From Crenobacter caeni (GTDB lineage: Bacteria > Pseudomonadota > Gammaproteobacteria > Burkholderiales > Chromobacteriaceae): a DNA stretch of 64,000 nucleotides. The stretch spans positions 248,001 through 312,000 of the forward strand of contig NZ_JAAGAA010000002.1 of assembly GCF_010435965.1 (NCBI RefSeq). Reading direction: 5' to 3'. Made by a program: the position numbers and the translations under genes. Every line of letters begins with the position of its first letter. The stretch's first letter is position 1. The notes under the pieces are model-generated. The model searched no databases. It saw nothing but the letters and a program-made list of their open reading frames with translations, and had not been told where the DNA came from. Shown piece by piece: positions 20,348 to 39,818 of this stretch.

Positions 20348-20367
20348 CAGTCTGCGGGCTGGACAGC

Positions 20368-20390
20368 AACGGGCGCTGCAGGCGCCCGTT
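20368..20390 (+). terminator. hairpin terminator after dcd
   Basis: A 9-bp perfect stem AACGGGCGC / GCGCCCGTT with a 5-base loop lies 21 bases after the dcd stop. Only a short T-run (ATTT) follows a few bases later. Confidence 0.7.
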
Positions 20391-20483
20391 CGCATTTACA
20401 TTTGCCAACAGTTTGCTGCTCGACCGCGCCGGCAACGCTGGCGAGAATGCAGGCTAATACGATCGAACCCGAGTGAAACGAAC

Positions 20484-20768
20484 ATGAAGTTGCGATACCT
20501 GTTGCCCATTGCCCTGTTGGGCTTCTCTTCCGTCGGAGCGCAGGCTGCGTCCACTTCCGATCTGATCGTCGGCGGCGCGCTCGGTGGCGCTGCCGGTGCG
20601 GTGATCGGCGATGCGGTCGGCGGGCGGGACGGCGCGGTGATCGGCGGGGCGCTGGGCGCCGGCGTCGGCGTCGCCGTCGTCAACAAGCACAGCAAGCCCA
20701 CCTACTACCCGTACCATCACGGCCACAAGCACAAGAAGAAGTACCGCAAGTGGCGGCACCACGACTGA
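20484..20768 (+). CDS. glycine-zipper protein with His/Lys-rich tail
   Basis: This is a small 94-residue exported protein. A signal peptide ends near residue 21 (SVGAQA). A glycine zipper follows at about residues 28-66, with repeated GG-x3-G and AGAVIG units, a pattern that inserts or packs in membranes. The last 25 residues are rich in Tyr, His, Lys and Arg (HHGHKHKKK) and could bind metal or anionic surfaces. The function is unknown. It has its own downstream terminator and is probably monocistronic. Confidence 0.75.
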   Translation: MKLRYLLPIALLGFSSVGAQAASTSDLIVGGALGGAAGAVIGDAVGGRDGAVIGGALGAGVGVAVVNKHSKPTYYPYHHGHKHKKKYRKWRHHD

Positions 20769-20787
20769 ACGTCGTCGCACTATCTAG

Positions 20788-20816
20788 AACGCCCCGGCCA
20801 TCCCAGCCGGGGCGTT
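20788..20816. terminator. terminator after the glycine-zipper gene
   Basis: An 11-bp stem AACGCCCCGGC / GCCGGGGCGTT with a 7-base loop is followed by TCGTTTT. It separates this gene from the convergent mscS-like gene. Confidence 0.8.
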
Positions 20817-20822
20817 TCGTTT

Positions 20823-21884
20823 TCAGGCGCGGGGCGCGCTGTCGGCTTCGACGAACAGCGTGCGGCTGGGGAAGGCGAAGTCGGCGCCGTGGCGGTGCAC
20901 GATGTCGACGATCGCGAGCAGCACCTCCTGCTGCACCGCGAGCCACTTGGCCCAGTCGGTGGTGCGCGTGTAGCAGTACACCATGATGTTCAGCGACGAC
21001 TCGCCGAAGGCGTTGAAGTTGACCAAGAGGCTCTGCGTCTGGTCGATCTCGGGGTGGGCGGCGAGCATCGCGTGGATGTCGGCGACCACCGGCGCGACGC
21101 GCGCGCTGTCCTCGTAGCGCAGGCCAACGGTGGTGGTGATCCGCCGGTTGCTCATGCGCTGCGGGTTCTCGACGGCGATGGTCGAGAACACCGAGTTGGG
21201 CACGTAGAGCGGGCGGTTCTGGAAGGTGAAGATGCGGGTCAGCCGCCAGCCGATATGTTCGACCGTGCCCTCGATATTGCGGTCGGGCGAGCTGATCCAG
21301 TCGCCGACCTTGAACGGGCGGTCGAGGAAGATCATCAGCCCGCCGAAGAAGTTGCTGAGGATATCCTTGCCGGCCAGGCCGATGATCAGGCCGCCCGCGC
21401 CGCCGAAGGCGAGCAGGCCGGACAGGCTGAGGCCGAACTGCTGGCCGACGCCGAGGAAGACCACCAGCAGCACGCTGGCCTTGGCGAGCTTGGCGACCGC
21501 GTTGGCCGAGGTCGCATCACTGCCGGCGTCGACGTGGATGTGCTCGGACGCGTCGATGTAGCGGAACGCGCCCCACAGCACGGAGAGCGCCAGCGCGCAG
21601 GCGCGTAAGGGCGCAATCCACGGCAGCAGTTCGGGCAGCAGGTGGCGCGCGGCGACGTCGAGCAGCAGGCTGGCGCTGACAACGCCGATCACCGCGAGCG
21701 CGACCGGAGACGCCTGCTGCCAGAACGCCTTGAGCAGGCCGCGGCGCAAGGAGGCTTCGCCGCGCGCCAGGCGGCGCAGCAGCAGATACCAGCCGGCGAA
21801 GGCGAGCAGCGTGAAGAACAGGATGAGGCCGACTTCCCATAGGGTGCGCGGCGCGAAAGCAGGATCGGATAGCGGTTCGGTCAT
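20823..21884 (-). CDS. MscS-family mechanosensitive ion channel
   Basis: The protein has 353 residues. Four or more hydrophobic segments fill the N-terminal half, followed by the pore helix [20 protein letters not shown] near residue 160 and the beta domain [21 protein letters not shown]. These are the hallmarks of MscS. The extra N-terminal helices resemble YnaI/YbdG types rather than the minimal MscS. It should open under membrane tension to release osmolytes. It follows the trmB-like gene by 65 bases on the same strand. Confidence 0.92.
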
Positions 21885-21949
21885 GGCGTGGCGAAAACTT
21901 GGTCAGCCTTCATTGAAGACGGTGGCCGGCATTTCTGCCGCCACCGGTG

Positions 21950-22615
21950 TCAGTCCGGGCGGCCAAGGTCGTGGCGTACCCGCCACAGCCGGTGGCCGGA
22001 GCCCAGGTACTTGCGTTCGAACGCGGTCAGCGCATCGTCGGGGTGCCAGGCCTCGACCGGCACGGTTTCGCCGGTCAGCGCCTTGAGCGCGTACGCGTGC
22101 TCGTCGGCGTAGATCCGCCAGTTGGTACGCAATTCCAGCACGCCGCCCAGGCGCAACAGCAGCGGGAACACCGGGTGGCCGTGCCAGCGCCTTTGCAGGT
22201 GCTGCGGCTTGGGCCACGGGTTGGGGTAGAGCATCCAGTGCTGGGCGAGCCGTACGCCATCGTCCGCCATCAGCCGCCACAAATCGATGAGGTCGGCGCG
22301 CACGAACAGCGCGTTGTCGGGGACGGGCTCCGCCTTGCCGCGGCCGAGGCGGTCGGCCGACTGGTCGACGCCGACCACGAAATGGTCGGGGTGCTCGCGG
22401 GCGAGCCTGAGCGTGGAGACGCCGACGCCGCAGCCGGTGTCGAGGATCAGGGGCGCTGCGCCGCCCCACGCCGCGCGCACCTGGCGCCAGGCGTCGACGT
22501 TGAACGCCGCGTACGGCTTGCGGTAGGGGTGGGCCGCGTGGCGGCCGAGCACGTCAGCGAGGCGCTCATGGATGCCCGCCTGCGCGCTCACGATCTCGCG
22601 CGAATTGTCCTGCAT
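21950..22615 (-). CDS. TrmB-like tRNA (guanine-N7)-methyltransferase
   Basis: This 221-residue SAM-dependent methyltransferase has the SAM-binding motif ILDTGCGVGVSTL near residue 57. It also has LYPNPWPKPQHLQRRWH, the equivalent of the conserved DPWPKKRH-x-RR motif of TrmB, which makes m7G46 in tRNA. LELRTNWRIYADEHA fits the family's TD-x-x-x-Y block. The motif is divergent (YPNPWPK), so it may be a TrmB paralogue with another RNA target. It starts 7 bases after mutL and is in the same transcription unit. Confidence 0.75.
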   Translation of the reverse strand: MQDNSREIVSAQAGIHERLADVLGRHAAHPYRKPYAAFNVDAWRQVRAAWGGAAPLILDTGCGVGVSTLRLAREHPDHFVVGVDQSADRLGRGKAEPVPDNALFVRADLIDLWRLMADDGVRLAQHWMLYPNPWPKPQHLQRRWHGHPVFPLLLRLGGVLELRTNWRIYADEHAYALKALTGETVPVEAWHPDDALTAFERKYLGSGHRLWRVRHDLGRPD

Positions 22616-22622
22616 GGGTTCT

Positions 22623-24494
22623 TCACTGGCCGCGCATGAACAGGCGGTCCAGGTCCTTCATGGTCAGCCGCGTCCAGGTCGGGCGGCCGTGGTTGCATTG
22701 TCCGGAGCGCTCGGTTGCCTCCATGTCGCGCAACAGCGCGTTCATCTCGGCAAGGTTGAGCGCGCGGTTGGCGCGCACCGCGCCGTGGCAGGCCATGGTC
22801 GCCAACAGCTCGTTGCGCCGCTCGGTCAGCGCGGCGCTGACGCCGTGGGTACGCACGTCGGCGAGCACCGCGCGCGCAAGCTCGACCGGGTCGGCGTCGG
22901 CCAGCCACAGCGGCACCGCGCGCACCGCGAGCTGGGTTGGCGACAGCGGCGCGAGTTCCAGCCCCAGCCGCTTCAGCGCGTCGCCGTGCTCGTCGGCGGT
23001 GGCGACCTCGAAGCGGTCGGCGCCGAACGATACCGGCAGCAGCAAGGGCTGCAAGGGCAGGTTGTCGGTCTCGAGCGCGCATTTCATGCGCTCGTAGACG
23101 ATGCGCTCGTGCGCGGCGTGCATGTCGACCAGGATCAGCCCGTCGGCCGCCTGCGCGAGGATGTACACGCCGTGCAGCTGCGCCAGCGCGAAACCCAGCG
23201 GCGGCACGCCGTCGGTGTCGGCATCCGGCATCGGCGCCGGCGCGCTGATGGTGGGGGATGCGTCCGCCGCGCGTTCCTCGGCGCGGATGGCGGAGAACAT
23301 CGCGTCGTACACGCCGACCGCCTCGCGGGCGACGGCAAGCGGGATGCGCTGCTGCTCGAAGCGTTGCGGCAGCGGGGCGCGCCCGGGCGTGCCCGCGCGG
23401 GGCGCTGTATCAGCCGCGGCGGGAAACAGCGGCGCCGTGGCGGACGGCGCCGGCTGCGCGGCATCGGGCGCGGCGAGCTGGGCGTCGACGGCAGCGCGGC
23501 CTTCGCCCGCACCCGCCGCGAGTACCTTGTGCACCGAGTGGAACAGGAACTGGTGGATGGCCTGGCTCTCGCGAAAGCGCACCTCGACCTTGGTCGGGTG
23601 CACGTTGACGTCGACGCCGGCTGGGTCGAGGGTGAAAAACAGCGCGTACGCCGGGTGGCGCTCGTGGTGCAGCACGTCGCGGTACGCCTGGCGCAGCGCG
23701 TGCTGCGCGGTCTTGTCGCGCACGAAGCGGCCGTTCACGTAGAAGAACTGCGCGTCGCGGCTCGCCTTGGAGAAGGTGGGCGACGCGACGAGGCCGCGTA
23801 GGGTGAGGCCGCCCGCCTCGCTGTCGACAATCAGCGAGGCGTCGACGAAGTCGCGGCCGAGGATGGCGCCGACGCGGTCGGCCAGGCTTTGCACCGGCAA
23901 GCGGGCGGTGACCTTGCCGTTGTGGCGCAGGATCATCTCGACGCCGGGGTGGGCCAGCGCGACGCGCTCGAACGCGGCCGCGCAGTGCGCGTACTCGGTC
24001 GCCTCGCTCTTCAGGAACTTGCGGCGCGCCGGCGTGTTGAAGTAGAGGTCGACCATCTCGACCGTGGTGCCTTCCGGGTGCGCGGCCGGCTCGACCGGGT
24101 GCAGGGTGCCGTCGATGGCGATGATCTGGTGCGCGTGTGCCTCGCCATGCGGGCGGCTCACCAGCGTCAGTCGCGACACCGAGGCGACGCTGGCGAGGCC
24201 CTCGCCGCGAAAGCCCAGCGTCGCCACCCGCTCCAGTTCGTCCAGCGAGCCGATCTTGCTGGTCGCGTGGCGGTCGAGCGCCAGCGGCAAGTCGTCCGCG
24301 GCGATGCCGCTGCCGTCGTCGTTGACGCGGATCAGCTTGATGCCGCCTTGCGCGATGTCGACGGTGATGCGCCGCGCGCCGGCGTCCAGGCTGTTCTCCA
24401 GCATCTCCTTGAGAGCAGAGGCCGGCCGTTCGACCACCTCGCCGGCGGCGATCTGGTTGACCAGGTGGTCGGGCAGCTTGCGGATGCGCTTCAT
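22623..24494 (-). CDS. mutL: DNA mismatch repair protein MutL
   Basis: This is a 623-residue MutL. The N-terminal GHKL ATPase motifs are complete: NSLDAGA, DDGSGI, ATSKI and [12 protein letters not shown]. The C-terminal dimerization domain contains [12 protein letters not shown], which fits the endonuclease motif DQHA-x2-E-x4-E except for Met in place of Gln. A nicking MutL fits an organism without MutH. A low-complexity linker rich in Ala and Pro lies near residues 340-430. The ATG overlaps the dedA stop (ATGA), so the two are coupled. Confidence 0.95.
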
Positions 24495-25144
24495 CGTGCG
24501 CCGGCCCGCGCCGCGGCGCGCTTGTGGCGCCAGAACTCGATGATGCCCGGCAGGATGGACACGAAGATGATGCCGAAGATCAACAGCGTCAGGTTCTGCT
24601 TGACGATGGGCATGTTGCCGAAGAAGTAGCCGGCGTAGCCGAAGCTCGCGACCCACAGTACGGCGCCGGTGACGTTGTAAAAGGCGAAGTGGCGGTAGCC
24701 CATCTTGCCGATGCCGGCGACAAACGGCGCGAAGGTGCGCACGATGGGCACGAAGCGGGCGAGGATGATGGTCTTGCCGCCGTGCTTCTCGTAGAAGGCG
24801 TGCGTCTTCTCCAGATACTCGGGGCGGATCAGCCTAGGGAAGCGGGCCGCCAGCTTCTCGCCGAAATAACGGCCGATCGCGTAGTTGACCCCGTCGCCGA
24901 TCACGGCGGCGACGATCAAGAGGGCGACCATCGCGTGGATGTTCATCTCGCCCAGCGCGGCCAAGGTGCCTGCGACAAACAGCAGCGAGTCGCCCGGCAG
25001 GAAGGGCGTGACCACGAGGCCGGTCTCGCAGAACACGATCAGGAACAGGATCGCGTAGATCCACGGCCCGTACGCGGCGGCCAGCTCCGCCAGGTGCACG
25101 TCGATGTGCAGGATGAAGTCGATGATGAACTGCAGGTATTCCAT
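24491..25144 (-). CDS. DedA family membrane protein
   Basis: This 217-residue inner-membrane protein has about six hydrophobic segments. The DedA/SNARE-associated core is clear: [20 protein letters not shown] and, later, [20 protein letters not shown] with the conserved Arg residues. DedA proteins act as flippases for undecaprenyl phosphate or phospholipids and affect membrane potential. It heads the dedA-mutL-trmB unit, downstream of the secDF terminator. Confidence 0.93.
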
Positions 25145-25216
25145 ATCAGGGTCCTCGGTGCTTGCCGGAACCCCCGCTGCGGGGCAGGGGCTCGGGCAAG
25201 CAGGGTGGGGGAGGCG

Positions 25217-25244
25217 AAAAGGGCCGGCGGTGCCGGCCCTTTTT
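25217..25244 (-). terminator. terminator after secF
   Basis: The stem AAAAGGGCCGGC / GCCGGCCCTTTT (3-base loop) lies 15-42 bases beyond the secF stop. On the minus strand the 3' arm ends in CCCTTTT, a good intrinsic terminator for the tgt-yajC-secDF unit. Confidence 0.85.
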
Positions 25245-25258
25245 GCGGGCGGGGTCGG

Positions 25259-26194
25259 TCAGACCACCGCTTCCTGTTTCTGCTTGGGCGGCTTGATCAT
25301 GTGCTCGCGCTTGATCCCCAGCGCCAGTGCCAGCGGGCTTGCCACCAGCACCGACGAGTAGATGCCGAACACGATGCCGATGGTCAGCGCCATCGCGAAG
25401 CCGTGCAGCGCGGCACCGCCGAACAAGAGCATCGACAGCACCATCGCCTCGGTCGAGCCGTGGGTGATCATGGTGCGGCTGATCGTCGAAGTGATCGCGT
25501 GGTCGATCACTTCGGCCGTGGTCATGTGCTTCATGCCGGGCTTGCGGAAGTTCTCGCGGATCCGGTCGAACACCACCACCGACTCGTTGACCGAGTAGCC
25601 GAGCACGGCGAGCACGCCGGCGAGTACGGTCAGCGAGAACTCCCACTGGAACAGCGCGAAGCAGCCCAGGATGATCACCACGTCGTGCATGTTGGCGATG
25701 ATCGCCGACACCGCGAAGCGCCATTCGAAGCGCAGCGCGAGGTAGGCGATGATGCCCAGGCACACCACGGTCAGCGCGATCAGGCCGTTCTCGACCAGTT
25801 CGGCGCCGACCGACGGGCCGACGAACTCGACCTTGCGCAGCTCGACCTGGGTGTCGCCAGCCTTGAGCGCGGTGAGCACCTGGTTGGAGAGCTGGGCGGC
25901 GCTGACGTCCTTCTTCACCGGCAGGCGGATCAGCACGTCGCGGCTGGTGCCCAGGCTCTGTACCTGCGCTTCGCCGAGCTTCAGGCGGTCGACCCGCCCT
26001 CGGACGTCGGCGAGGTTGGCGGACTGCGTGTACTGCACTTCCATCACCGTGCCGCCGGTGAATTCGACGCTCAGGTTCAGCCCCTTGCTGAACAGGAAGA
26101 ACACGGCAAGGATGAAGGTCACCAGCGAGATGGTCGTGGTGAGCTTGCCGTAGCTCATGAACGGGATGTCCCGTTTGATGCGGAAAAGCTCCAT
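25259..26194 (-). CDS. secF: protein translocase subunit SecF
   Basis: This 311-residue inner-membrane protein is a partner of SecD that uses the proton gradient to help pull preproteins through SecYEG. The first transmembrane helix is at residues 15-35, followed by VEFTGGTVMEVQ and a periplasmic domain. Five C-terminal helices include VLAVLGYSVNESVVVFDRIR, the conserved proton-path motif, and RTMITHGSTEA. It begins 9 bases after secD. Confidence 0.97.
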   Translation of the reverse strand: MELFRIKRDIPFMSYGKLTTTISLVTFILAVFFLFSKGLNLSVEFTGGTVMEVQYTQSANLADVRGRVDRLKLGEAQVQSLGTSRDVLIRLPVKKDVSAAQLSNQVLTALKAGDTQVELRKVEFVGPSVGAELVENGLIALTVVCLGIIAYLALRFEWRFAVSAIIANMHDVVIILGCFALFQWEFSLTVLAGVLAVLGYSVNESVVVFDRIRENFRKPGMKHMTTAEVIDHAITSTISRTMITHGSTEAMVLSMLLFGGAALHGFAMALTIGIVFGIYSSVLVASPLALALGIKREHMIKPPKQKQEAVV

Positions 26195-26203
26195 GGTGTC
26201 CCC

Positions 26204-28054
26204 TTACTTGGCCTCTTGTTCCGGTTTCCAAATCTGGCCGACCGAAATCGAGCTCAGGCGACGGCGGCGTCCGTACCACAGGTTGACGAAGCCGCGCGAG
26301 ACCAGCACCGCCGAGAACATCGAGGTGAGGATGCCCAGGCAGTGCACGACGGCGAAGCCGCGGACCGGGCCCGAGCCGAAGATCAGCAGCGCAAGGCCGG
26401 CGATCATCGTCGTCACGTTCGAGTCGAGAATGGTCGCCCACGCGTGCTGGTAGCCGGCCTGGATCGCCGACTGCGGCGGCATGCCGTTACGCAGCTCCTC
26501 GCGGACCCGCTCGTTGATCAGCACGTTGGCGTCGATCGCCATGCCCAGCGTCAGCGCGATCGCCGCGATGCCCGGCAGCGTCAGCGTCGCCTGCAGCATC
26601 GACAACAGCGCGACCAGCATCAGCACGTTCACGCCGAGCGAGAGCACCGAGATCAGGCCGAACACGTGGTAGTAGACCAGCATGAACACGGCGATCGCGG
26701 CGAAGCCCCACAGCGTCGAGTTGAAGCCCTTCTGGATGTTTTCCTTGCCCAGGCTCGGGCCGACGGTGCGCTCCTCGATGATCTGCATCGGCGCCGCCAG
26801 CGAGCCTGCGCGCAGCAACAGCGCGGTGTCGTTGGCTTCGGCCGGGTTCATCGAGCCGGAAATCTGCACGCGGCCGCCGCCGATCTCGGAGCGGATCACC
26901 GGCGCGGTCACCACCTCGGCCTTGCCCTTCTCGACCAGGATCATCGCCATGCGGCGGCCGATGTTCTCGGCGGTGACCTGGCGGAAGATGCCGGCGCCGG
27001 TCGAATCCAGGCCGATGTGCACGGCCGGCGCGCCGTTCTCGTCGAAGCCCGGCTGCGCGTCGTTGATGTTGTCGCCGGTCAGCTCGACGTCCTTCTTGAC
27101 CAGGATCTTGGTCGGGCCACGCGGGGTCATCTCGTCGAGCAGTTCGTAGCCCATCGGCACGCTGCCAGCCATCGCCTCGTTCACCTTGCCCGGGTCGTCC
27201 TCGACCAGGCGTACCTGCAGGGTCGCGGTGCGGCCGAGGATGTCCTTGGCCTTGGCGGTGTCCTGTACGCCCGGCAACTGCACCACGATGCGGTTGGGGC
27301 CGGCCTGCTGGATCACCGGCTCGGCGACGCCCAATTCGTTGACGCGGTTGTGCAGCGTGGTGATGTTCTGCTTGACCGCATCCGATTCGATGCGGGTGAT
27401 CTCTTCGGGCTTGAGCGCGAGTTTCAGCGTGTAGTTCGCGTCGTCGGCCTTCAGGTTAAGGCCGGGCAGGGTGCGCACGATCGCCTTCTCGGCGGCCGCG
27501 AGCGTTTCCTGGTCGCGCAGCTGTACGGTCAGCGTTTCACCGTCACGGCGGATCGTGCCGTAACGGATCTTCTTGTCCTTGAGCTCGCGGCGGATGTCGC
27601 CGGCGTAGCGCTCCATGGTCTTGTCGAGCGCGGCCTTCATGTCCACTTCGAGCAGGAAGTGCACGCCGCCACGCAGGTCGAGGCCGAGGAACATCGGGTT
27701 GGCGTGGATCTTGGTCAGCCACTGCGGCGACGCGGAGAGCAGGTTGAGCGCGATGATGTAGTTGTCGCCCAGCGCCTGTTCGATCACGTCGCGCGCCTTG
27801 ATCTGCACGTCGGTGTCCTTGAAGCGCACCTTGAGGCTGCCGCCGTCAAGGTAGACGCCGTCCGGCGTGATCTGGTGCGCCTTGAGCGCGCCTTCGACGC
27901 GTTCCATCACGGCGGTGTCGACCGGCATCGACTGGCGGGTGCTCGAGATCTGCACCGCCGGGGTCTCGCCGTAGAAGTTGGGCAGCGTGTACAGCGCCGA
28001 GACGATCAGCGCCACCACGATGACGAGGTATTTCCAGAGCGGGTAGCGGTTCAT
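26204..28054 (-). CDS. secD: protein translocase subunit SecD
   Basis: This 616-residue inner-membrane protein acts with SecF in Sec-dependent export. It has the short N-terminal helix (KYLVIVVALIVSALYTLPN), the GLDLRGGVHFLLEVD motif and a large periplasmic P1 domain. The C-terminal membrane part includes LTLGMAIDANVLINERVREE with the key Asp. I place the start at the ATG at 28054; a TTG 8 codons upstream is also in frame. No strong ribosome-binding site is visible, and a strong hairpin lies just upstream. Confidence 0.96.
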   Translation of the reverse strand: MNRYPLWKYLVIVVALIVSALYTLPNFYGETPAVQISSTRQSMPVDTAVMERVEGALKAHQITPDGVYLDGGSLKVRFKDTDVQIKARDVIEQALGDNYIIALNLLSASPQWLTKIHANPMFLGLDLRGGVHFLLEVDMKAALDKTMERYAGDIRRELKDKKIRYGTIRRDGETLTVQLRDQETLAAAEKAIVRTLPGLNLKADDANYTLKLALKPEEITRIESDAVKQNITTLHNRVNELGVAEPVIQQAGPNRIVVQLPGVQDTAKAKDILGRTATLQVRLVEDDPGKVNEAMAGSVPMGYELLDEMTPRGPTKILVKKDVELTGDNINDAQPGFDENGAPAVHIGLDSTGAGIFRQVTAENIGRRMAMILVEKGKAEVVTAPVIRSEIGGGRVQISGSMNPAEANDTALLLRAGSLAAPMQIIEERTVGPSLGKENIQKGFNSTLWGFAAIAVFMLVYYHVFGLISVLSLGVNVLMLVALLSMLQATLTLPGIAAIALTLGMAIDANVLINERVREELRNGMPPQSAIQAGYQHAWATILDSNVTTMIAGLALLIFGSGPVRGFAVVHCLGILTSMFSAVLVSRGFVNLWYGRRRRLSSISVGQIWKPEQEAK

Positions 28055-28072
28055 GGGAATGGGCAGGAAAGA

Positions 28073-28100
28073 GGACAAGCCGCCCGCGGGCGGCTTGTCC
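28073..28100 (-). promoter_or_regulatory. strong hairpin between yajC and secD
   Basis: A perfect 12-bp stem (28073-28084 with 28089-28100, loop CGCG) fills most of the gap between the yajC stop and the secD start. On the minus strand it is followed by CTCTTTCC, a poor U-run. It could partly terminate transcription, stabilise the yajC mRNA end or limit secD translation. Confidence 0.6.
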
Positions 28101-28108
28101 TTGGGGGG

Positions 28109-28429
28109 TTACAGGGACTTGAGCGTGCCTTTTTCCAGCTTGCCGGCGACGGCGGAGCGCTGGATGGTGATCTCGACCTTGTCGGCGATCTCGATGTTCA
28201 GGTACTGCTCGGACACCTTGGTCACGCGACCGACGATGCCGCCCTGGGTGGCCACTTCGTCGCCCTTCTGGACTTCCGACAGCATCTTCTGGTGTTCCTT
28301 CATGCGCTTTTGCTGCGGGCGCACCAGCAGGAACCAGAACAGCACGAAGATCACGATCATCGGCAGGAACTGCATGAAATCGAAGCCGGCTACAGCAGTA
28401 CCTGCTGCGTGGGCGGGGGCAATAAACAT
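28109..28429 (-). CDS. yajC: preprotein translocase subunit YajC
   Basis: This 106-residue single-pass membrane protein is an accessory of SecDF. The transmembrane helix FLPMIVIFVLFWFLLVRPQQKR at about residues 21-42 ends in the typical RPQQKR stop-transfer (read as two pieces, FLPMIVIFVLF and WFLLVRPQQKR). The cytosolic domain contains GDEVATQGGIVGRV. It lies between tgt and secD in the conserved order. Confidence 0.96.
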   Translation of the reverse strand: MFIAPAHAAGTAVAGFDFMQFLPMIVIFVLFWFLLVRPQQKRMKEHQKMLSEVQKGDEVATQGGIVGRVTKVSEQYLNIEIADKVEITIQRSAVAGKLEKGTLKSL

Positions 28430-28519
28430 CGTTAACTCCCTCTAAGGGTGGAATGGGGCCGCTAGGGTGAACCGGTGATTGTAGCGACGGCGGGTGGCTT
28501 TTCCAACCATGCCCGCCGC

Positions 28520-28555
28520 GGAACCCGTCCGACCGTGTTGCGCGGACGGGGTTCC
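28520..28555. terminator. hairpin after tgt
   Basis: Arms GGAACCCGTCCG (28520-28531) and CGGACGGGGTTCC (28543-28555), with one bulged G, form a stable stem just beyond the tgt stop. There is no T-run, so it may be partial or serve mRNA stability between tgt and yajC. Confidence 0.45.
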
Positions 28556-28560
28556 CTGTG

Positions 28561-29724
<1,164 letters not shown>

Positions 29725-29746
29725 TCAAGTTTTTTGCAAAAAGTGC

Positions 29747-29775
29747 TTGCCAGGCGGCACGGGGGTCTGTACTAT
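29747..29775 (+). promoter_or_regulatory. sigma-70 promoter of tRNA-Val
   Basis: TTGCCA (29747-29752), a 17-base spacer and TACTAT (29770-29775) form a good housekeeping promoter. The start point near 29782 leaves a leader of about 50 bases before the tRNA. Confidence 0.65.
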
Positions 29776-29830
29776 TCGCCTCACTGATTCGGCGCTGAAC
29801 TCCAAAACGAAGCGAAGCGGCGAAATCGAC

Positions 29831-29907
29831 AGGCACGTAGCTCAGCTGGTTAGAGCACCACCTTGACATGGTGGGGGTCGTTGGTTCGAATCCAATCGTG
29901 CCTACCA
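29831..29907 (+). tRNA. tRNA-Val (GAC)
   Basis: This is a complete 77-base cloverleaf. The acceptor stem AGGCACG pairs with CGTGCCT, the D-loop is AGCTGGTTAGA, and the anticodon loop TTGACAT has GAC. The T-arm contains GGTTCGAATCC, and CCA is encoded. It reads GUC and GUU valine codons. It is followed by a structured region and a terminator before thrS. Confidence 0.97.
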
Positions 29908-29918
29908 ATATACCGAAA

Positions 29919-30035
29919 CACATGAAGGAACCGCGGAAATGTTCCGAACTACCGAGACCACACGAACTCGTTGACCGGGCCCGGTGGTGCTTCATGTGAT
30001 ATAAAAAAGTGCGGCTCGAGCCGCACTTTTTTTTT
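29919..30035 (+). promoter_or_regulatory. structured region and terminator between tRNA-Val and thrS
   Basis: Nine-base arms CACATGAAG (29919-29927) and CTTCATGTG (29990-29998) enclose smaller hairpins such as GGAAC / GTTCC. Immediately after comes an ideal intrinsic terminator: stem GTGCGGC / GCCGCAC (30009-30026) flanked by A6 and followed by nine T. The terminator ends 48 bases before the thrS ATG. It ends the tRNA transcript, or with the upstream structure it attenuates thrS. Confidence 0.75.
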
Positions 30036-30083
30036 GCCCATTTTTTGTGCCTTGTGGTGCGCCCTCAAAAAGCTGGAGTTGTC

Positions 30084-31985
30084 ATGCCCGATATCCGCCT
30101 TCCCGATGGTTCTGTCCGCTCGTACGAACAGGCCGTGACCGTTCACGACGTAGCCGCCTCGATCGGCGCTGGCCTCGCCCGTGCCGCGCTGGCCGGCCGG
30201 GTCGACGGCGAGCTGGTGGATACCTCCTACCTGATCGACCGCGACGCGGACCTTGCCATCATCACCGACAAGGACGCCGACGGACTGTCGGTGATCCGCC
30301 ACTCGACCGCCCACCTGTTGGCGTACGCGGTGAAGACGCTGTTCCCTGACGCGCAGGTCACCATCGGGCCGGAAATCGAGAACGGCTTCTACTACGACTT
30401 CAGCTACAAGCGCCCGTTTACGCCGGAAGACTTGGTCGCGATCGAGAAGAAGATGGCCGAGCTCGCCAAACAGGACATTCCGGTCGAGCGCTACACGCTG
30501 CCGCGCGACGAGGCCATCGCCTACTTCAAGAGCATCGGCGAACACTACAAGGCCGAGATCATCGAGGCGATCCCGCAGGGTGAAGTGCTGTCCCTTTATA
30601 AGGAAGGCGATTTCACCGACCTGTGCCGCGGCCCGCACGTGCCGTCGACCGGCAAGCTCAAGGTGTTCAAGCTGATGAAGCTCGCCGGTGCCTACTGGCG
30701 CGGCGACAGCAAGAACGAGATGCTGCAGCGCATCTACGGCACTGCGTGGGCGAAGAAGGAAGACCTCGCCGCTTACCTGCACATGCTGGAAGAAGCCGAG
30801 AAGCGCGACCACCGCAAGCTGGGCAAGGTGCTCGACCTCTTCCACCTGCAGGACGAGGCGCCGGGCATGGTGTTCTGGCACCCGAAGGGCTGGACGCTGT
30901 GGCAGAACATCGAGCAGTACATGCGCCGTACCCTGACCGCCGCCGGCTACCAGGAAATCAAGACGCCGATGGTGATGGATCGCACGCTGTGGGAGAAGTC
31001 CGGCCACTGGGAAAACTACCGTGACAACATGTTCACCACCGAGTCGGAAAAGCGTGACTACGCGGTGAAGCCGATGAACTGCCCGGGTCACGTGCAGGTG
31101 TTCAACCAGGGCCTGCGTTCGTACCGCGACCTGCCGTTGCGTCTGGCCGAATTCGGCGCCTGCCACCGCAACGAGCCGTCCGGTGCGCTGCACGGCCTGA
31201 TGCGCGTGCGCGGCTTCGTGCAGGACGACGCACACATCTTCTGCACCGAAGAGCAGATCAATTCGGAGGCGCGTGCGTTCAACGAGCTGACCATGGCGGT
31301 GTACCAGCACTTCGGCTTCGACAATGTCGCGATCAAGCTGAGCCTGCGCCCCGAGAAGCGCGCTGGTTCCGACGAGGTGTGGGACAAGGCCGAACAAGGT
31401 CTGCGTGACGCGCTGTCCGCTTGTGGCGTCGAATGGGAAGAGCTTCCGGGCGAGGGTGCGTTCTACGGCCCGAAGATCGAGTACCACATCAAGGATGCGC
31501 TGGGCCGCTCCTGGCAGTGCGGCACGCTGCAACTCGACTTCGTGTTGCCCGAGCGTCTGGACGCCGAGTATGTGACCGAGGACAACGGCCGCAAGCGCCC
31601 GGTGATGCTGCACCGCGCGATCCTGGGCTCGCTCGAGCGTTTCATCGGCATCCTGATCGAAAACCATGCCGGCGCCTTCCCGCTGTGGCTCTCGCCGGTG
31701 CAGATGGTGGTGATGAACATCTCCGAGGCGCAGGCGGATTACGCGGCCGAAGTCGCACAAACGCTGAAAAATCAAGGCTTCCGCGTGGAGCTTGACTTGA
31801 GGAACGAGAAGATCGGTTATAAAATCCGCGAGCACAGCCTGCAAAAGTTGCCGTACCAGATCATCGTCGGCGACAAGGAGAAGGCTGACGGACTGGTGGC
31901 AGTCCGGGCGCGCGGCGAAGATCTGGGTCAGCTGACCCTGGACGCCTTCTCGGCCCGGCTGGCTGCGGAACTTCCGCAGGCCTGA
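30084..31985 (+). CDS. thrS: threonine-tRNA ligase
   Basis: This is a 633-residue class II synthetase. An N-terminal TGS domain (residues 1-62) is followed by the editing domain with [11 protein letters not shown]. The catalytic core contains motif 2 ([20 protein letters not shown]), and the zinc-binding Cys lies in NCPGHVQVF. The anticodon-binding domain is at the C-terminus. I use the ATG at 30084, preceded by GGAG; the frame extends further upstream through the terminator. It heads the thrS-infC-rpmI-rplT block. Confidence 0.98.
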
Positions 31986-32017
31986 GCCCCGGATTCGATC
32001 GATTATCTATAGGAGAT

Positions 32018-32542
32018 TTGGCTATCGCTCAGGAACGCGAACCACGGATCAACGGCGAGATTACCGCTCGCGAGGTCCGTCTGGTAGGGAATGAAGGTGA
32101 GCAGCTCGGTATTGTGAGCATGCGGGAGGCGCTGGCACTTGCCGAAGAGCGCGACGTTGATCTGGTGGAGATTTCCCCGAACGCGCAGCCTCCGGTTGTC
32201 AAGCTGATGGACTACGGCAAGTACAAGTACGAGCTGTCCAAGAAGCGGCAGGAAGCCAAGGCCAAGCAAAAGCAGATCCAGATCAAGGAAGTGAAGTTCC
32301 GTCCGGGTACTGACGACGGCGACTACAACGTCAAGTTGCGCAACCTGATCCGCTTCCTGCAGGACGGCGACAAGGCCAAAGTGACCTTGCGCTTCCGAGG
32401 CCGCGAAATGGCCCACCAGGATATCGGCCTTGCGCTCTTGAAGCGCGTCGAGGCTGATCTGGTCGAGGTTGGCACCGTCGAGCAGTTCCCGCGTCTCGAA
32501 GGCCGCCAGATGGTCATGATGATTGCCCCGAAAAAGAAATAA
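32018..32542 (+). CDS. infC: translation initiation factor IF-3, probable non-AUG start
   Basis: The protein has about 172-174 residues. It blocks premature 50S joining and checks the start codon. The N-domain ([20 protein letters not shown]) and C-domain ([34 protein letters not shown]) are complete. No ATG or GTG lies at the expected start. A TTG at 32018 is only two bases from GGAG (32012-32015). The ATC at 32024 has 8-base spacing and gives the usual short N-terminus, so AUC is the more likely start. IF-3 genes of other bacteria use rare AUU starts for self-repression. Confidence 0.95.
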
Positions 32543-32553
32543 TCGGGTATAAT

Positions 32554-32620
32554 CGTCGTCTTGACACGGCAGGGTGACCTGCCGTGTCGGTTTTATGGCT
32601 TCAAAGCCATGCAAAAGCGT
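32554..32620 (+). promoter_or_regulatory. infC-rpmI intergenic leader with two hairpins
   Basis: CGGGTATAATCGTC (32554-32567) contains a consensus -10 hexamer and could start a transcript for rpmI-rplT. Two hairpins follow: GACACGGCAGG / CCTGCCGTGTC (32573-32598, followed by GGTTTTAT) and ATGGCT / AGCCAT (32605-32620). About 80 further bases lead to rpmI. In E. coli this spacer holds the L20 autoregulatory site. The same role is plausible here. Confidence 0.55.
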
Positions 32621-32700
32621 GATGTAGCGGTTCCCAAGCGGCCAGCGCAAGCCGGTCCACCCTGCATCTAATCTAACTCAATTCTGCTGGGGTATTTTCC

Positions 32701-32898
32701 ATGCCGAAAATGAAGACCAAATCGAGCGCCAAAAAGCGCCTGAAGGTTCTGGGCAATGGTGGTGTGAAGCGTTCCTTCGCGTTCAAACGTCACATCCTGA
32801 CCAAGAAGACCACCAAGAACAAGCGCCAACTGCGTGGCACCACCATGGTGGATGCAACCAATATGGCCTCTGTTCGTGCAATGCTGCCCTACGCCTAA
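32701..32898 (+). CDS. rpmI: 50S ribosomal protein L35
   Basis: This 65-residue basic protein has the standard L35 sequence ([20 protein letters not shown] at the start) and the usual length. It is part of the 50S subunit. It is followed by rplT after 10 bases. Its translation in other bacteria is repressed by L20 acting on the leader. Confidence 0.98.
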
Positions 32899-32908
32899 GG
32901 AGTAATAA

Positions 32909-33265
32909 ATGCCTCGTGTAAAACGCGGTGTAACCGCTCGCGCCCGTCACAAGAAAATCCTCGCTCTGGCGAAAGGCTACCGCGGCCGTCGCAAGAACGT
33001 ATACCGCATCGCCAAGCAGGCGGTGATGAAGGCCGGTCAGTACGCTTACCGTGACCGCCGCCAGAAGAAGCGCCAGTTCCGCCAGCTGTGGATCGCCCGT
33101 ATCAACGCCGCTGCGCGTGAGTGCGGTCTGTCGTACAGCAAGTTCATGAACGGCCTGAAGAAAGCCGCTATCGAAATCGACCGCAAGGTCCTGGCCGACC
33201 TGGCCGTGTTCGACAAGCCGGCCTTCGCACAGATCGTCGAGCAGGCTAAAGCCAAGCTCGCCTGA
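32909..33265 (+). CDS. rplT: 50S ribosomal protein L20
   Basis: This 118-residue protein is an assembly factor and structural part of the 50S subunit. The extended basic N-terminus ([20 protein letters not shown]) and the globular C-domain match the family. A strong terminator lies right after it. In E. coli and Bacillus, L20 binds its own operon leader, so the hairpins before rpmI may be its target. Confidence 0.98.
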
Positions 33266-33282
33266 TCGCGGGTCGCTGCAAG

Positions 33283-33308
33283 GGGAGGCGCGAGCCTCCC
33301 TTTTTTTT
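33283..33308 (+). terminator. terminator after rplT
   Basis: A 7-bp stem GGGAGGC / GCCTCCC with a GCGA loop is followed by eight T. It is a textbook intrinsic terminator for the thrS-rplT unit. Confidence 0.95.
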
Positions 33309-33327
33309 CGTGAAACTTCCAAGAGAG

Positions 33328-34363
<1,036 letters not shown>

Positions 34364-34381
34364 TCGCGGCGGAGACCAAAC

Positions 34382-36742
34382 ATGCAATTTTCCGAAAAGT
34401 GGCTGAGAAGCTGGGTCAACCCGTCGCTGTCCAGTGACGAGCTTTCTTACCTGCTGACGATGGCCGGCCTCGAAGTCGAGGAAACCGAGCCGGCGGCGCC
34501 CGCGTTCAGCGGCGTCGTCGTCGCCGAAGTGAAGGAAGTCGCCAAGCACGAGAACGCCGACCGCCTGCGCGTGACCAAGGTCGATGTCGGCCTCGGGGAA
34601 CTGGTGCAGATCGTGTGCGGCGCGCCGAACGTCGCCGTCGGCCTGAAAGTGCCATGCGCGCTGCCTGGCGCCGTGCTGCCGGGCGACTTCAAGATCAAGC
34701 CGACCAAGATGCGCGGTGTCGAATCGAATGGCATGCTGTGCTCGGGCAAGGAAATCGGCGTGCCCGACGAGGTCGACGGCCTGTTGGTGCTGGATGCGGA
34801 CGCGCCGGTCGGCGCGAGCATCCGCGACTACCTGTCGCTCGACGACACGCTGTTCACGCTGAAGATCACCCCCAACCGCGCCGACTGCCTGTCGATCCGC
34901 GGCCTCGCGCGCGAAGTCGCCGCGCTCACCGGCAGCGAGCTTAGCCCGCTGGTACCGCAAGCGGTGGCGCCGAGCATCGACGACACGAAGACCGTCCGGC
35001 TTGACGCAGGCAAGGCGTGTGGCCGCTATATCGGTCGTGTCGTGAAGGGCGTGGACGCAGCCGCGCCGACGCCGCGCTGGATGCGCGAGCGCCTCGAACG
35101 CGCCGGCCTGCGCTCGATCTCGGCGATTGTCGACATTACCAACTACGTGCTGCTCGAGCAGGGCCAGCCCATGCACGCGTTCGATCTCGCCCGCCTCGAC
35201 GGCGGCGTCACCGTGCGCTTCGCGCAAGAAGGCGAGACGCTGGTCTGCCTGAACGAGAAAGAAGTGACGCTGTCGGCCGATACCCTGGTGATCGCCGACG
35301 ACGTGAAGGCCTTGGCGATCGCCGGCGTGATGGGCGGGCTGGAGAGTGGCGTGACCACCGCCAGCCGCGACATCTTCCTCGAGAGCGCGTTCTTCGCGCC
35401 CGAGGTAGTCGCCGGCAAGGCGCGCCGTCTGGGCTTCGGTTCCGACTCTTCGTTCCGTTACGAGCGCGGCGTCGACTTCATGCTGCAGCGTGAAGCGATC
35501 GAACGTGCGACCGCGCTGGTGCTGGAGATCTGCGGCGGCGCTGCCGGCCCGCTGACCGAGGCGGTTGGCGAGCTGCCCGAGCGCGCCGAGGTGAAGCTGC
35601 GCACCGCGCGCGTCGCGCGCGTGCTCGGCGTGAGCCTGACGGCCGACGAGATCGCCGCCATCCTTGCGCGCCTGGCGCTGCCCGCGCGCGCCGTCGACGA
35701 CGGTTTTGTCGTCACCGCGCCGAGCTTCCGCTTCGACATCCGCATCGAGGAAGACCTGATCGAGGAAGTGGCCCGCGTCTACGGCTACGACAACATCCCG
35801 TCCGACGCGCCGAAGAGCGGCCAGCGCATGCTGGCGCAGCCCGAAGAGCTGCGTCCGCGCGAGGCGGTGCGTCAGATGGTCGCTTCGCGCGACTACCAGG
35901 AGATCGTCAGCTACGCCTTCGTTGAGGAGCGCTGGGAAGCCGACTTTGCCGGCAACGCCGACCCGGTACGCCTGATCAACCCGATCGCCAGCCAGATGAG
36001 CGTGATGCGCTCGACGCTGATCGGCGGCCTGGTCGACACCCTGTGCGGCAACCTCAACCGCAAGCAGCCGCGCGTGCGCGTGTTCGAGATCGCCCGCGTG
36101 TTCAAGAAGGACGGCGAGGCCTTCGTGCAGCCGGAAAAGGTTGCCGCGCTGGCTTGGGGGGCGCGTGCACCCGAGCAGTGGGGCATGCGTGCCGAACGCG
36201 TCGACTTCTACGACGTGAAGGCCGACGTCGAGGCGCTGCTGTTCCCGCGCGTGGCCGAGTTCCGCCGCGCCGCGCATCCCGCGCTGCACCCGGGGCGCGC
36301 GGCCGAGGTGCTGGTCGACGGCGAAGTGGTCGGCGTACTGGGCGAGCTGCACCCGCGCTGGGTGCAGGCGTACGACCTGCCGTCGGCGCCGGTGCTGTTC
36401 GAGCTCGACTTTGCCGCGCTGCAATCGCGCACGCCAGTCAAGGCGCGTGCGGTGTCGCGTTTCCAGGGCGTGCGGCGCGACCTCGCTTTCGTCGTCGCCG
36501 AATCGGTCGAAGCCGCTGCGCTGCTCTCGACGCTGCGCAAGGTCGCGGGCGAACTGGTGACCGAGGTCGCGCTGTTTGACGTGTATCGCGGCAAGGGCGT
36601 GGAAGAGGGCAAGAAGAGCCTCGCGCTGCGCGTGCAGCTGCAGGCGATGGACCGCACGCTGAACGACGAGGACGTCGAGGCGGTGATCGCCGCGATGGTC
36701 GCCGCGGCTGCCGAAGAGCACCACGCCGTGTTGCGCTTCTGA
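34382..36742 (+). CDS. pheT: phenylalanine-tRNA ligase beta subunit
   Basis: This 786-residue beta subunit has an N-terminal tRNA-binding OB domain (residues 40-150, NADRLRVTKVDVG). The B3/B4 editing module clears Tyr-tRNA(Phe). The B5 domains and a catalytic-like core (FEIARVFKKDG) follow, and a C-terminal ferredoxin-like anticodon-binding domain (SRFQGVRRDLAFVV) ends the protein. It follows pheS after 18 bases, and a terminator-like hairpin separates it from ihfA. Confidence 0.97.
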   Translation: MQFSEKWLRSWVNPSLSSDELSYLLTMAGLEVEETEPAAPAFSGVVVAEVKEVAKHENADRLRVTKVDVGLGELVQIVCGAPNVAVGLKVPCALPGAVLPGDFKIKPTKMRGVESNGMLCSGKEIGVPDEVDGLLVLDADAPVGASIRDYLSLDDTLFTLKITPNRADCLSIRGLAREVAALTGSELSPLVPQAVAPSIDDTKTVRLDAGKACGRYIGRVVKGVDAAAPTPRWMRERLERAGLRSISAIVDITNYVLLEQGQPMHAFDLARLDGGVTVRFAQEGETLVCLNEKEVTLSADTLVIADDVKALAIAGVMGGLESGVTTASRDIFLESAFFAPEVVAGKARRLGFGSDSSFRYERGVDFMLQREAIERATALVLEICGGAAGPLTEAVGELPERAEVKLRTARVARVLGVSLTADEIAAILARLALPARAVDDGFVVTAPSFRFDIRIEEDLIEEVARVYGYDNIPSDAPKSGQRMLAQPEELRPREAVRQMVASRDYQEIVSYAFVEERWEADFAGNADPVRLINPIASQMSVMRSTLIGGLVDTLCGNLNRKQPRVRVFEIARVFKKDGEAFVQPEKVAALAWGARAPEQWGMRAERVDFYDVKADVEALLFPRVAEFRRAAHPALHPGRAAEVLVDGEVVGVLGELHPRWVQAYDLPSAPVLFELDFAALQSRTPVKARAVSRFQGVRRDLAFVVAESVEAAALLSTLRKVAGELVTEVALFDVYRGKGVEEGKKSLALRVQLQAMDRTLNDEDVEAVIAAMVAAAAEEHHAVLRF

Positions 36743-36766
36743 TATCCTATTGTTTTTTAAACACGA

Positions 36767-36796
36767 ATCCCCCGCCTTGGGCGGGGGATCATTTTT
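36767..36796 (+). terminator. terminator-like hairpin between pheT and ihfA
   Basis: A 9-bp stem ATCCCCCGC / GCGGGGGAT with a CTTGG loop is followed by CATTTTTG. It lies 24 bases before the ihfA start, so ihfA is expressed by read-through or from another promoter. Confidence 0.8.
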
Positions 36797-36820
36797 GAGT
36801 TGGCCGTTTCGAGGTATTGC

Positions 36821-37117
36821 ATGACTTTGACAAAAGCCGAGTTGGCTGACCTGCTGTTCGATCGGGTTGGTTTGAACAAGCGCGAAGCCAAGGACATGGT
36901 GGAGTCTTTTTTCGAGGAAATCCGTGTCGCGTTGGAGGTCGGTGACAGCGTGAAGCTGTCCGGCTTCGGTAACTTCCAGCTGCGCGACAAGCCGCAGCGT
37001 CCCGGTCGCAACCCCAAGACCGGGGAGGAAATTCCCATCACCGCTCGCCGTGTGGTAACTTTTCATGCGAGTCAGAAACTGAAAGGCATGGTCGAGCAAA
37101 ACCATGAAGGCCGCTGA
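36821..37117 (+). CDS. ihfA: integration host factor subunit alpha
   Basis: This 98-residue HU/IHF-family DNA-bending protein has [20 protein letters not shown] at the start. The beta-arm [20 protein letters not shown] carries the conserved Pro that intercalates DNA. It pairs with IhfB, which is not in this window. The ATG at 36821 follows GAGG. The usual pheST-ihfA-merR order is kept. It overlaps the MerR gene by 14 bases. IHF is a typical co-activator at sigma-54 promoters such as the fliK promoter here. Confidence 0.97.
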
Positions 37118-37451
37118 ACTGCCGGCGATCCCGGCCAAGCGCTACTTCACCATCGGTGAAGTCAGCGAGCTGACCGGGGTCAAGCCCCATATCCTGCGCT
37201 ACTGGGAACAGGAGTTCTCCCAGCTCTCGCGCGTGCAACGCCGCGGTAACCGCCGCTATTACCAGCACCGCGAGGTGTTGATGGTGCGCCGGATCCGCGG
37301 CTTGCTGTACGACGACGGTTTCACCATCCAGGGGGCACGCCAGCGCCTGGCGCAGCAGGGCGAGCAGCCGCTGCCCGTCACCGCGCAGGAAGTGCGCAAG
37401 GAATTGCAGTCCATCCTCGACTGGCTCGATCTTGGGCTTGGCAAAAGCTGA
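37104..37451 (+). CDS. MerR family transcriptional regulator (ihfA-linked)
   Basis: This 115-residue protein has an N-terminal MerR winged helix-turn-helix ([20 protein letters not shown] and WEQEFSQL), a wing with RRGNRRYY and a short helix. It lacks a long C-terminal effector domain and metal-binding cysteines, so it is not a metal sensor. This small MerR protein is almost always found right after ihfA in beta- and gammaproteobacteria. Its targets are not known to me. The tRNA-Pro promoter begins within its last codons. Confidence 0.92.
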
Positions 37452-37466
37452 GTTTGCAAATATAAT
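37438..37466 (+). promoter_or_regulatory. sigma-70 promoter of tRNA-Pro
   Basis: TTGGCA (37438-37443), 17 bases and a perfect TATAAT (37461-37466) give a start about 8 bases before the tRNA. The -35 box overlaps the last codons of the MerR gene. Confidence 0.8.
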
Positions 37467-37480
37467 GCGCTCTCTTCGGT

Positions 37481-37558
<78 letters not shown>

Positions 37559-37564
37559 AGTTTC

Positions 37565-37602
37565 AAAGAAAAAGGCTACCGGTAACGGTGGCCTTTTTCT
37601 TT
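37565..37602 (+). terminator. terminator after tRNA-Pro
   Basis: Long arms AAAGAAAAAGGCTACCG and CGGTGGCCTTTTTCTTT pair over 17 positions with one G-T wobble and a GTAA loop. The T-rich 3' arm completes an intrinsic terminator. Confidence 0.9.
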
Positions 37603-37702
37603 GTCTGATGCCCGCCGCACGGAACGGCCATCCTTTGCCGCGCGGCAACCTTGGCGTGCCCAGCTGCCGGCATGACTGTTACTTTTATGTCATATGATGG
37701 GC

Positions 37703-37755
37703 TTGTGCGTTCGTTCAGTCTTCGTATAATCAATCCAATTATCATGTATACGATA
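37703..37755 (+). promoter_or_regulatory. promoter and probable auto-operator of the GntR gene
   Basis: TTGTGC (37703-37708), a 16-base spacer and TATAAT (37725-37730) precede a palindrome-like TATCATGTATACGATA (37740-37755) at the expected start point. Its core ATGTATACGA matches the TNGTATACNA type of GntR/FCD operator at nearly every position. Self-repression is expected. Confidence 0.6.
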
Positions 37756-37775
37756 GGGCAGGATCCGGATTCCCG

Positions 37776-38444
37776 ATGACCATCATGCAGCCGATCAAGC
37801 GCCAGACCCTGACCAGCGCCGTGACCGAGTCGTTGCGCAAGCGCATCCTGTCCGGCGAGTTTGCCGACGGCCAGCAGCTGCGCCAGGAAGCGCTATCGAA
37901 CGAGTACGGTGTCAGCCGTGTCCCGGTGCGCGAGGCGCTGCGCCAGCTCGAGGCCGAGGGCCTGATCCAGATCATCGACCACAAGGGCGCGCTGGTTTCC
38001 AAGCTGTCGTTCGAGGACGTGCTCGAGTTCCTGGAGATCCGCTCGCAACTGGAGAGCGCGCTGCTTGCCGCGTCTATCCCGCGCCAGACCGAAGACGACC
38101 TGGCGCTGGCCCAGGCTACGCTCGACGAATTCGAGGAGGCGCTGCAAAGCGGCGACGTGCGCCACTGGGGCGAGCTCAACTCGCGCTTCCACCTTGCCCT
38201 GTATCGTTCGGCCGAACGCCCGAACACGCTGGCGCTGATCGAGTCGCTGCACAACAAGACCGACCGCTACACCCGCATGCAGATCCTGTTCACCGAGACG
38301 ATGGCGCGCGCGCACGAAGAGCACAGCCGCCTGTTGCGCTTGTGCCGGGAGCGCAGGGTCGAAGAGGCTGCCGAGTTCATCCGTTTCCATATCCTGTCCG
38401 CCGGCCGCGCGCTCGAAGCGTACCTGCAGGAACAGTCCGCCTGA
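37776..38444 (+). CDS. GntR/FCD family transcriptional regulator
   Basis: This is a 222-residue FadR-subfamily GntR regulator. The winged helix-turn-helix (LRQEALSNEYGVSRVPVREA) lies at about residues 36-55. The FCD domain spans residues 80-215 and holds the Asp/His metal-ligand pattern (NSRFHLALY and later EEHSRLL and FHILSAG). FCD proteins sense organic acids or sugar acids. No catabolic gene is adjacent, so its targets beyond itself are unknown. No strong ribosome-binding site is seen; the ATG at 37785 is an alternative start. Confidence 0.92.
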   Translation: MTIMQPIKRQTLTSAVTESLRKRILSGEFADGQQLRQEALSNEYGVSRVPVREALRQLEAEGLIQIIDHKGALVSKLSFEDVLEFLEIRSQLESALLAASIPRQTEDDLALAQATLDEFEEALQSGDVRHWGELNSRFHLALYRSAERPNTLALIESLHNKTDRYTRMQILFTETMARAHEEHSRLLRLCRERRVEEAAEFIRFHILSAGRALEAYLQEQSA

Positions 38445-38469
38445 ACGCCTGATTCCCTGCTGACACCCG

Positions 38470-38496
38470 CGACAGGCCGGCTTGACCGGCCTGTCG
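38470..38496. terminator. hairpin between the convergent GntR and binding-protein genes
   Basis: A perfect 11-bp stem CGACAGGCCGG / CCGGCCTGTCG with a CTTGA loop lies between the two stop codons. No T-run is present on either strand, so it may act mainly as an mRNA 3' end structure. Confidence 0.55.
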
Positions 38497-38497
38497 G

Positions 38498-39688: not shown

Positions 39689-39818
39689 GACGGTTCCGGC
39701 ATTGGATGGCGCCATTGTCGCCCGAATTACCCGGCCAGTGAATGCATTTTGTATATCTTGTCTGCCGCCGCCGTGCCTGCTCGGTTAGAATCAAGGCTCC
39801 ACTATCCATCCTTTTCGC

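Follow-up and report, generated by a model that had tools for sequence, protein, structure and literature searches.

We propose that thrS of Crenobacter caeni is controlled by a ribosome-mediated transcription attenuator that senses the charging of Thr-tRNA, a reading to which we assign a probability of about 90%. The window, that is, the whole stretch of DNA analysed, spans 64,000 nucleotides, and all positions count from its first base. The preliminary description of 29908-30083 had offered attenuation as one possibility for this region, and that suggestion is now strongly supported by an 11-codon reading frame with five Thr codons (positions 4, 5, 7, 8 and 10), which it had overlooked between the arms of the outer helix (P0), together with a terminator/antiterminator pair. 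Sequence and its comparison among relatives establish the Thr reading frame, the terminator, the antiterminator complementarity with its covariation in relatives, and the recurrence of P0. By this reading, many Betaproteobacteria appear to sense Thr-tRNA charging through a leader peptide and a terminator, unlike E. coli, and the attenuator would give an essential gene of translation a control that experiments can test. The features of the locus are as follows.

29747..29775, forward strand: promoter-like site TTGCCA-17-TACTAT upstream of tRNA-Val, a consensus match only (9/12)
29831..29907, forward strand: tRNA-Val (GAC)
29919..29927, forward strand: P0 5' arm of a 9-bp helix, CACATGAAG, overlapping the leader Shine-Dalgarno
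29925..29929, forward strand: leader-peptide Shine-Dalgarno-like AAGGA, 9 nt 5' of the leader ATG
29939..29974, forward strand: leader peptide reading frame MFRTTETTRTR*, with Thr-rich counterparts in relatives
29977..29992, forward strand: candidate antiterminator 5' strand, GGGCC (29977-29981) and GUGCUU (29987-29992)
29990..29998, forward strand: P0 3' arm of the 9-bp helix, CTTCATGTG
30003..30035, forward strand: intrinsic terminator A6-GTGCGGCTCGAGCCGCAC-T9, from the fold and conservation
30007..30017, forward strand: antiterminator 3' strand, part of the terminator 5' arm, AAGUGCGGCUC
30075..30078, forward strand: thrS Shine-Dalgarno GGAG
30084..31985, forward strand: thrS, threonyl-tRNA synthetase (TIGR00418), the putatively controlled gene, ATG at 30084
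32018..32542, forward strand: infC (TIGR00168), same-strand gene 3' of thrS
32909..33265, forward strand: rplT (TIGR01032), same-strand gene 3' of thrS

The site at 29747-29775, the sole promoter-like match that a consensus scan returned within 29600-30200, is the probable start of a tRNA-Val/leader/thrS transcript. Such a transcript would begin before tRNA-Val and continue into the leader, where a ribosome would initiate the 11-codon peptide. With plentiful Thr-tRNA(Thr), the ribosome would arrive at the stop codon and cover the start of the antiterminator strand, which begins 2 nt past that codon, such that the terminator at 30003-30035 would form and RNA polymerase would halt before thrS. 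With scarce Thr-tRNA(Thr), whether from little threonine or from little ThrRS, the ribosome would stall at the Thr codons, 29977-29992 would pair with the terminator 5' arm at 30007-30017, and thrS would be transcribed. In the ribosome-free state, P0 and an inner helix (P1) would mask the leader Shine-Dalgarno and the antiterminator strand and leave termination as the default; we infer that, in a fully transcribed leader, P0 shuts down synthesis of the peptide. Translation of the reading frame, stalling and read-through are predicted steps, as is any effect on the genes past thrS, where infC to rplT (32018..33265) may possibly share its control.

Putative threonine leader peptides upstream of thrS

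We evaluated the leader reading frame in a set of 132 leaders, comprising 131 thrS loci and L044, whose contig ends before thrS (ten loci with no detectable thrS were left out, L044 excepted); removing 12 that were shorter than 80 nt or contained N left 120, and removing 17 near-duplicates left 103 non-redundant leaders. A Thr-cluster reading frame, defined by three or more Thr within six codons, was found in 63/103, while 100 rounds of shuffling scored for Thr only gave 2.6 +/- 1.7 such leaders (maximum 8), a statistic which, as with all shuffle statistics here, ignores the shared ancestry of the leaders. The next commonest amino-acid clusters in the real leaders were those of Phe and Arg (25 each), with the Phe clusters probably stemming from T-runs. 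Forty of the 103 leaders possessed no Thr cluster, and one of the 63 (L113) was a chance reading frame that we dropped, leaving 62 Thr leaders.

Relatives carry clustered-Thr reading frames at the same place as in the window, including MFKRTTTTRISR (L035), MKHWRTTTTRHSHAS (L017), MQRTSTKTITYLG (L016) and MLNLLTTTPRISSGN (L033), and Shine-Dalgarno-type motifs occur in 27/29 listed leader starts. The peptides further include MTPRTLTETTSERR in Burkholderia (L072), MTPRTTTKVSK in Massilia (L069), MTPRTTSEMYFSC in Comamonas (L109) and MTPRTTTTPTKV in Roseateles (L102), with shorter versions outside the count in L128 (MTPRTQSSTGVLPTA) and L140 (MFRTSTQYGS). Leaders of this RTTTT type form a compact peptide family that falls below the size of most annotation. 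Among 80 named loci, the best 80 of more and found with thrS alone, a Thr-cluster reading frame was carried by 37 (34 plus the three near-duplicates L064-L066) and absent from 43, the latter including Nitrosomonas, Polynucleobacter, Limnohabitans and gammaproteobacterial loci such as Legionella.

All 62 retained Thr leaders have a terminator 3' of the leader stop, vs 2.3 of 62 (maximum 7) when the part downstream of the stop was shuffled, and the terminator starts 22-64 nt past that stop (median 34).

Terminator, antiterminator and outer helix

The two structural elements noted in the preliminary description are present in the window, namely 9-base complementary arms at 29919-29927 and 29990-29998, and at 30003-30035 a terminator made up of an A run, an 18-base palindrome and nine T, whose T-run ends 48 bases before the thrS ATG. 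Folding 29908-30044 gave z = -4.4, with 0/200 shuffles equally stable, and most of this stability comes from the terminator. Folded by themselves, the arms and the sequence between them (29917-29998) gave z = -2.3, with 6/200 shuffles equally stable. A consensus terminator scanner did not list 30003-30035, plain as the hairpin is in the fold and conserved as it is, probably because its A-tract pairs into the T-run.

We assessed the helices for covariation, which the preliminary description had named as a check, in two alignments. Alignment A1 holds 33 of 48 sequences, excluding near-duplicates, six divergent leaders and three that lack the leader reading frame, whereas A2 holds all 45 leader-bearing sequences; antiterminator, terminator and P0 were recounted in A2 with the same outcome, P1 was evaluated in A1 only, and the helix columns were chosen by hand from L017. 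Terminator columns were 98.1% paired in the 45 sequences (at most 61.3% when slid), and RNAalifold on A1 detected the terminator alone. Antiterminator columns were 90.6% paired in A2 (at most 41.0% when slid), with double-sided changes at 4/6 pairs, a count reached by 1/500 shuffles, and 90.9% paired in A1, with double-sided changes at 3/6 pairs; the count of further pair types was reached by 499/500 shuffles in A1 and by 0/500 in A2. Covariation was thus found for both terminator and antiterminator, the latter with examples such as CGAGCC pairing with GGCTCG and TGAGCC with GGCTCA.

When the upstream leader was searched for the sequence most complementary to the terminator 5' arm, its start fell between -11 and +11 nt from the end of the leader stop codon in 52/62 leaders, vs 13.3 +/- 3.0 (maximum 21) when shuffled. 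We also removed the RNA covered by a ribosome and folded the remainder up to the terminator loop. With this masked folding, the mean engagement of the terminator 5' arm with upstream sequence was 0.71 for a ribosome stalled at Thr, 0.46 at the stop, where some antiterminator is thus retained over all leaders, and 0.24 with no ribosome, and stalled exceeded stop in 54/62 leaders (8/62 did not). A footprint of 18 nt widened the contrast (0.71 stalled vs 0.33 at the stop), and shuffling the interval from stop to terminator almost removed it (0.56 vs 0.52).

The outer helix, which joins the leader Shine-Dalgarno region (often GGAG) to the stretch before the terminator, recurs across relatives with less covariation. 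Splitting leaders by locus number and peptide type into two groups, we obtained a mean P0 helix of 8.0 vs 5.1 shuffled in 29 leaders and of 7.2 vs 5.7 shuffled in 33 mostly Burkholderiales-type leaders. P0 columns reached 74.2% pairing across the 45 sequences, against no more than 50.0% after sliding, and P1 columns 74.8% in 33 sequences, with support weaker than that of the other helices in that their double-change pair counts were reached by 187/500 and 127/500 shuffles, respectively.

The window's own switch is less clear-cut than those of its relatives. For a ribosome whose A site holds Thr codon 7 and whose footprint is 12 nt, the free RNA starts at 29969, and GGGCC and GUGCUU both pair with 30007-30017; this fold is less stable than most shuffles, 189/200 of which fold as well. 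Folds from 29960 or 29963, in which codon 4 or 5 occupies the A site, place GGGC in a local hairpin and leave GUGCUU (with GU) to engage the terminator arm by itself, such that the GGGCC pairing appears in one of three stalled folds, whereas the GUGCUU pairing persists with the ribosome at the stop. In none of these stalled folds does stability exceed that of shuffles. The strongest single duplex that the window forms with the terminator arm lies within the Thr codons, not past the stop. Engagement was 0.84 stalled vs 0.60 at the stop with the 12-nt footprint, and a clear difference emerged only with the 18-nt footprint (0.81 vs 0.20). Across the family, then, position, covariation and masked folding all indicate an antiterminator and terminator that exclude one another, whereas for the window alone the case is weak: its anatomy is clear, but its antiterminator is less so than in relatives, and discrimination rests on the family.

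tRNA adjacency and other possible roles for the hairpin

Seeing a strong terminator positioned after a tRNA gene, one might suppose that the hairpin merely ends the tRNA-Val transcript and that thrS has a separate promoter after it, an explanation that we consider improbable. In its favour, a terminator is also found in 18/41 leaders without a Thr cluster, and some relatives (L043, L057) keep only the terminator, and no Thr leader reading frame, in a short tRNA-Val-to-thrS spacer. Against it, a consensus scan of 29908-30110 returned no promoter-like match, which speaks against the separate thrS promoter that the preliminary description had set against its own reading, and in 11/62 leaders the terminator stem ends merely 16-25 nt before thrS, which leaves too little room for such a promoter. 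It would also leave the Thr reading frame and antiterminator without a purpose, and the same parts occur where no tRNA was found within 600 nt (e.g. L101, L102, L120). A tRNA lies at most 600 nt upstream in 39/80 named loci (the best 80 of more), and the proposed thrS attenuator often sits behind a tRNA gene; in the genome set of relatives, found with a query that contained tRNA-Val, adjacency is biased.

We trained a covariance model on 33 leaders, with no thrS sequence included, and searched 300 genomes from the order with it. Of its 30 best loci, 19 came from genomes outside the training alignment, and all 19 were directly upstream of thrS; a run of six codons contained three or more Thr in 15 of these and two in the remaining four, although the model consensus contains Thr codons such that, unlike the thrS position, the Thr content of matches is not independent. 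A lower-scoring match (L177, G049:C1:557900-560100) encodes MQLNRTTTTS* followed by a terminator directly before thrS, with the tRNA-Val gene of that genome 2.2 kb from the thrS leader, and leader and tRNA are therefore separable. The overall tally of 134/300 includes weak matches, many of which we took as ordinary terminators, and is not a prevalence. Within the window's own genome, a second match at C22:278000-278079 on the reverse strand was the leader's palindromic terminator again, read in reverse, and the two next matches retrieved (L146, L147) had no thrS at the locus; these were rejected.

The same retrieval bears on the other product that the preliminary description had suggested, a small RNA matured from the tRNA transcript. 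After attenuation, a tail of about 128 nt would be left behind tRNA-Val, and P0 would give such an RNA a stable outer helix; yet the position of all 19 examined outside-training matches directly upstream of thrS, the existence of leaders with no adjacent tRNA and a conservation that tracks codons make a stable, functional small RNA very improbable. Under attenuation, a short RNA arising from termination and tRNA processing is expected as a by-product.

In E. coli, the same gene is the textbook example of translational autorepression, exerted by the encoded enzyme through ThrRS binding. Such a mechanism, in which ThrRS binds tRNA-Thr-like leader structures and blocks thrS translation, and which the preliminary description had cited from E. 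coli, is the least credible alternative. PMC2965389 mentions that E. coli threonyl-tRNA synthetase regulates itself, but the 48 nt before thrS (30036-30083) are no more stably folded than shuffles (z = +0.3; z = -0.2 for 30036-30110, with the start region added) and the conserved parts are the Thr codons and the terminator/antiterminator.

Codon choice, known systems and neighbouring sequence

In 58/61 cases, the Arg residue that directly precedes the Thr run of a leader is encoded by CGA, a codon that accounts for 2/257 Arg codons across nine genes of the window and for 78/2012 Arg codons (3.9%) in thrS coding starts, and ACT plus ACA make up 132/247 leader Thr codons (53%) vs 237/1403 in thrS starts (17%). 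Pairing of CGAAC with a downstream GTTCG was considered as a reason for CGA and rejected, as GTTCG occurs in only 8/57. We tentatively raise, as a possibility that we hold to be doubtful, that this is a recurrent betaproteobacterial attenuator with a CGA pacing codon, making the leader a two-part sensor, in which slow CGA would synchronise the ribosome with RNA polymerase ahead of the sensing codons. The near-fixed CGA before the Thr codons is in any case an experimentally accessible feature.

Leader-peptide attenuation is classical, and several of the closest known systems are from E. coli. No match to the Rfam models Thr_leader (RF00506, the E. coli thrL attenuator of thrABC) or T-box was found in window positions 20000-40000 (E up to 1) or in 15 relatives (E up to 0.5), and on the leader all Rfam families stayed below their gathering scores, both in that window stretch and in those relatives; matches to HPnc0260 (overlapping the antisense strand of the tRNA), PrrB/RsmZ, BSnc120, CsrC, ctRNA and MicX fell below gathering scores and were rejected. 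The attenuator reading would explain a conserved RNA with no Rfam match in the stretches searched. As in E. coli thrL, a Thr-codon leader peptide is followed by a terminator with an alternative antiterminator, but thrL controls the biosynthesis genes thrABC. As in the E. coli pheM attenuator of pheST, a leader rich in the cognate amino acid precedes an aminoacyl-tRNA synthetase gene, with pheM differing in its Phe codons and in the gene. The literature searched contained no description of a betaproteobacterial thrS leader, and Lopatovskaya et al. 2010, which reportedly treats attenuation of aminoacyl-tRNA operons, might already describe such a case.

The choice of codons within leaders has been treated before, as in PMC1183508, which gives eight ACC codons for the E. 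coli thrL leader; unlike thrL, the thrS leaders are short (mean 13 residues for the Thr leaders) and mix ACC with ACT and ACA. PMC8079986 describes a Streptomyces lividans thrL upstream of thrS, with a proposed leader peptide of 18 residues and two Thr, as leaderless and with one hairpin that has no U-rich stretch; it shares the target thrS with the leaders here but, as described there, is actinobacterial, with two Thr and no clear terminator.

Several minor observations were made on the surrounding sequence. The infC start codon at 32018 appears to be the non-standard TTG. Between rplT and pheS (33280-33360), where no Phe-rich leader was seen by eye, there is a strong terminator-like hairpin with eight T, followed before pheS by a second inverted repeat, CTGACC...GGTCAG, and then TTTTCTT. 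Upstream of the locus, a 1303-aa reading frame on the forward strand (24524-28435) lies antisense to secD and secF and is probably a shadow reading frame of GC-rich coding DNA.
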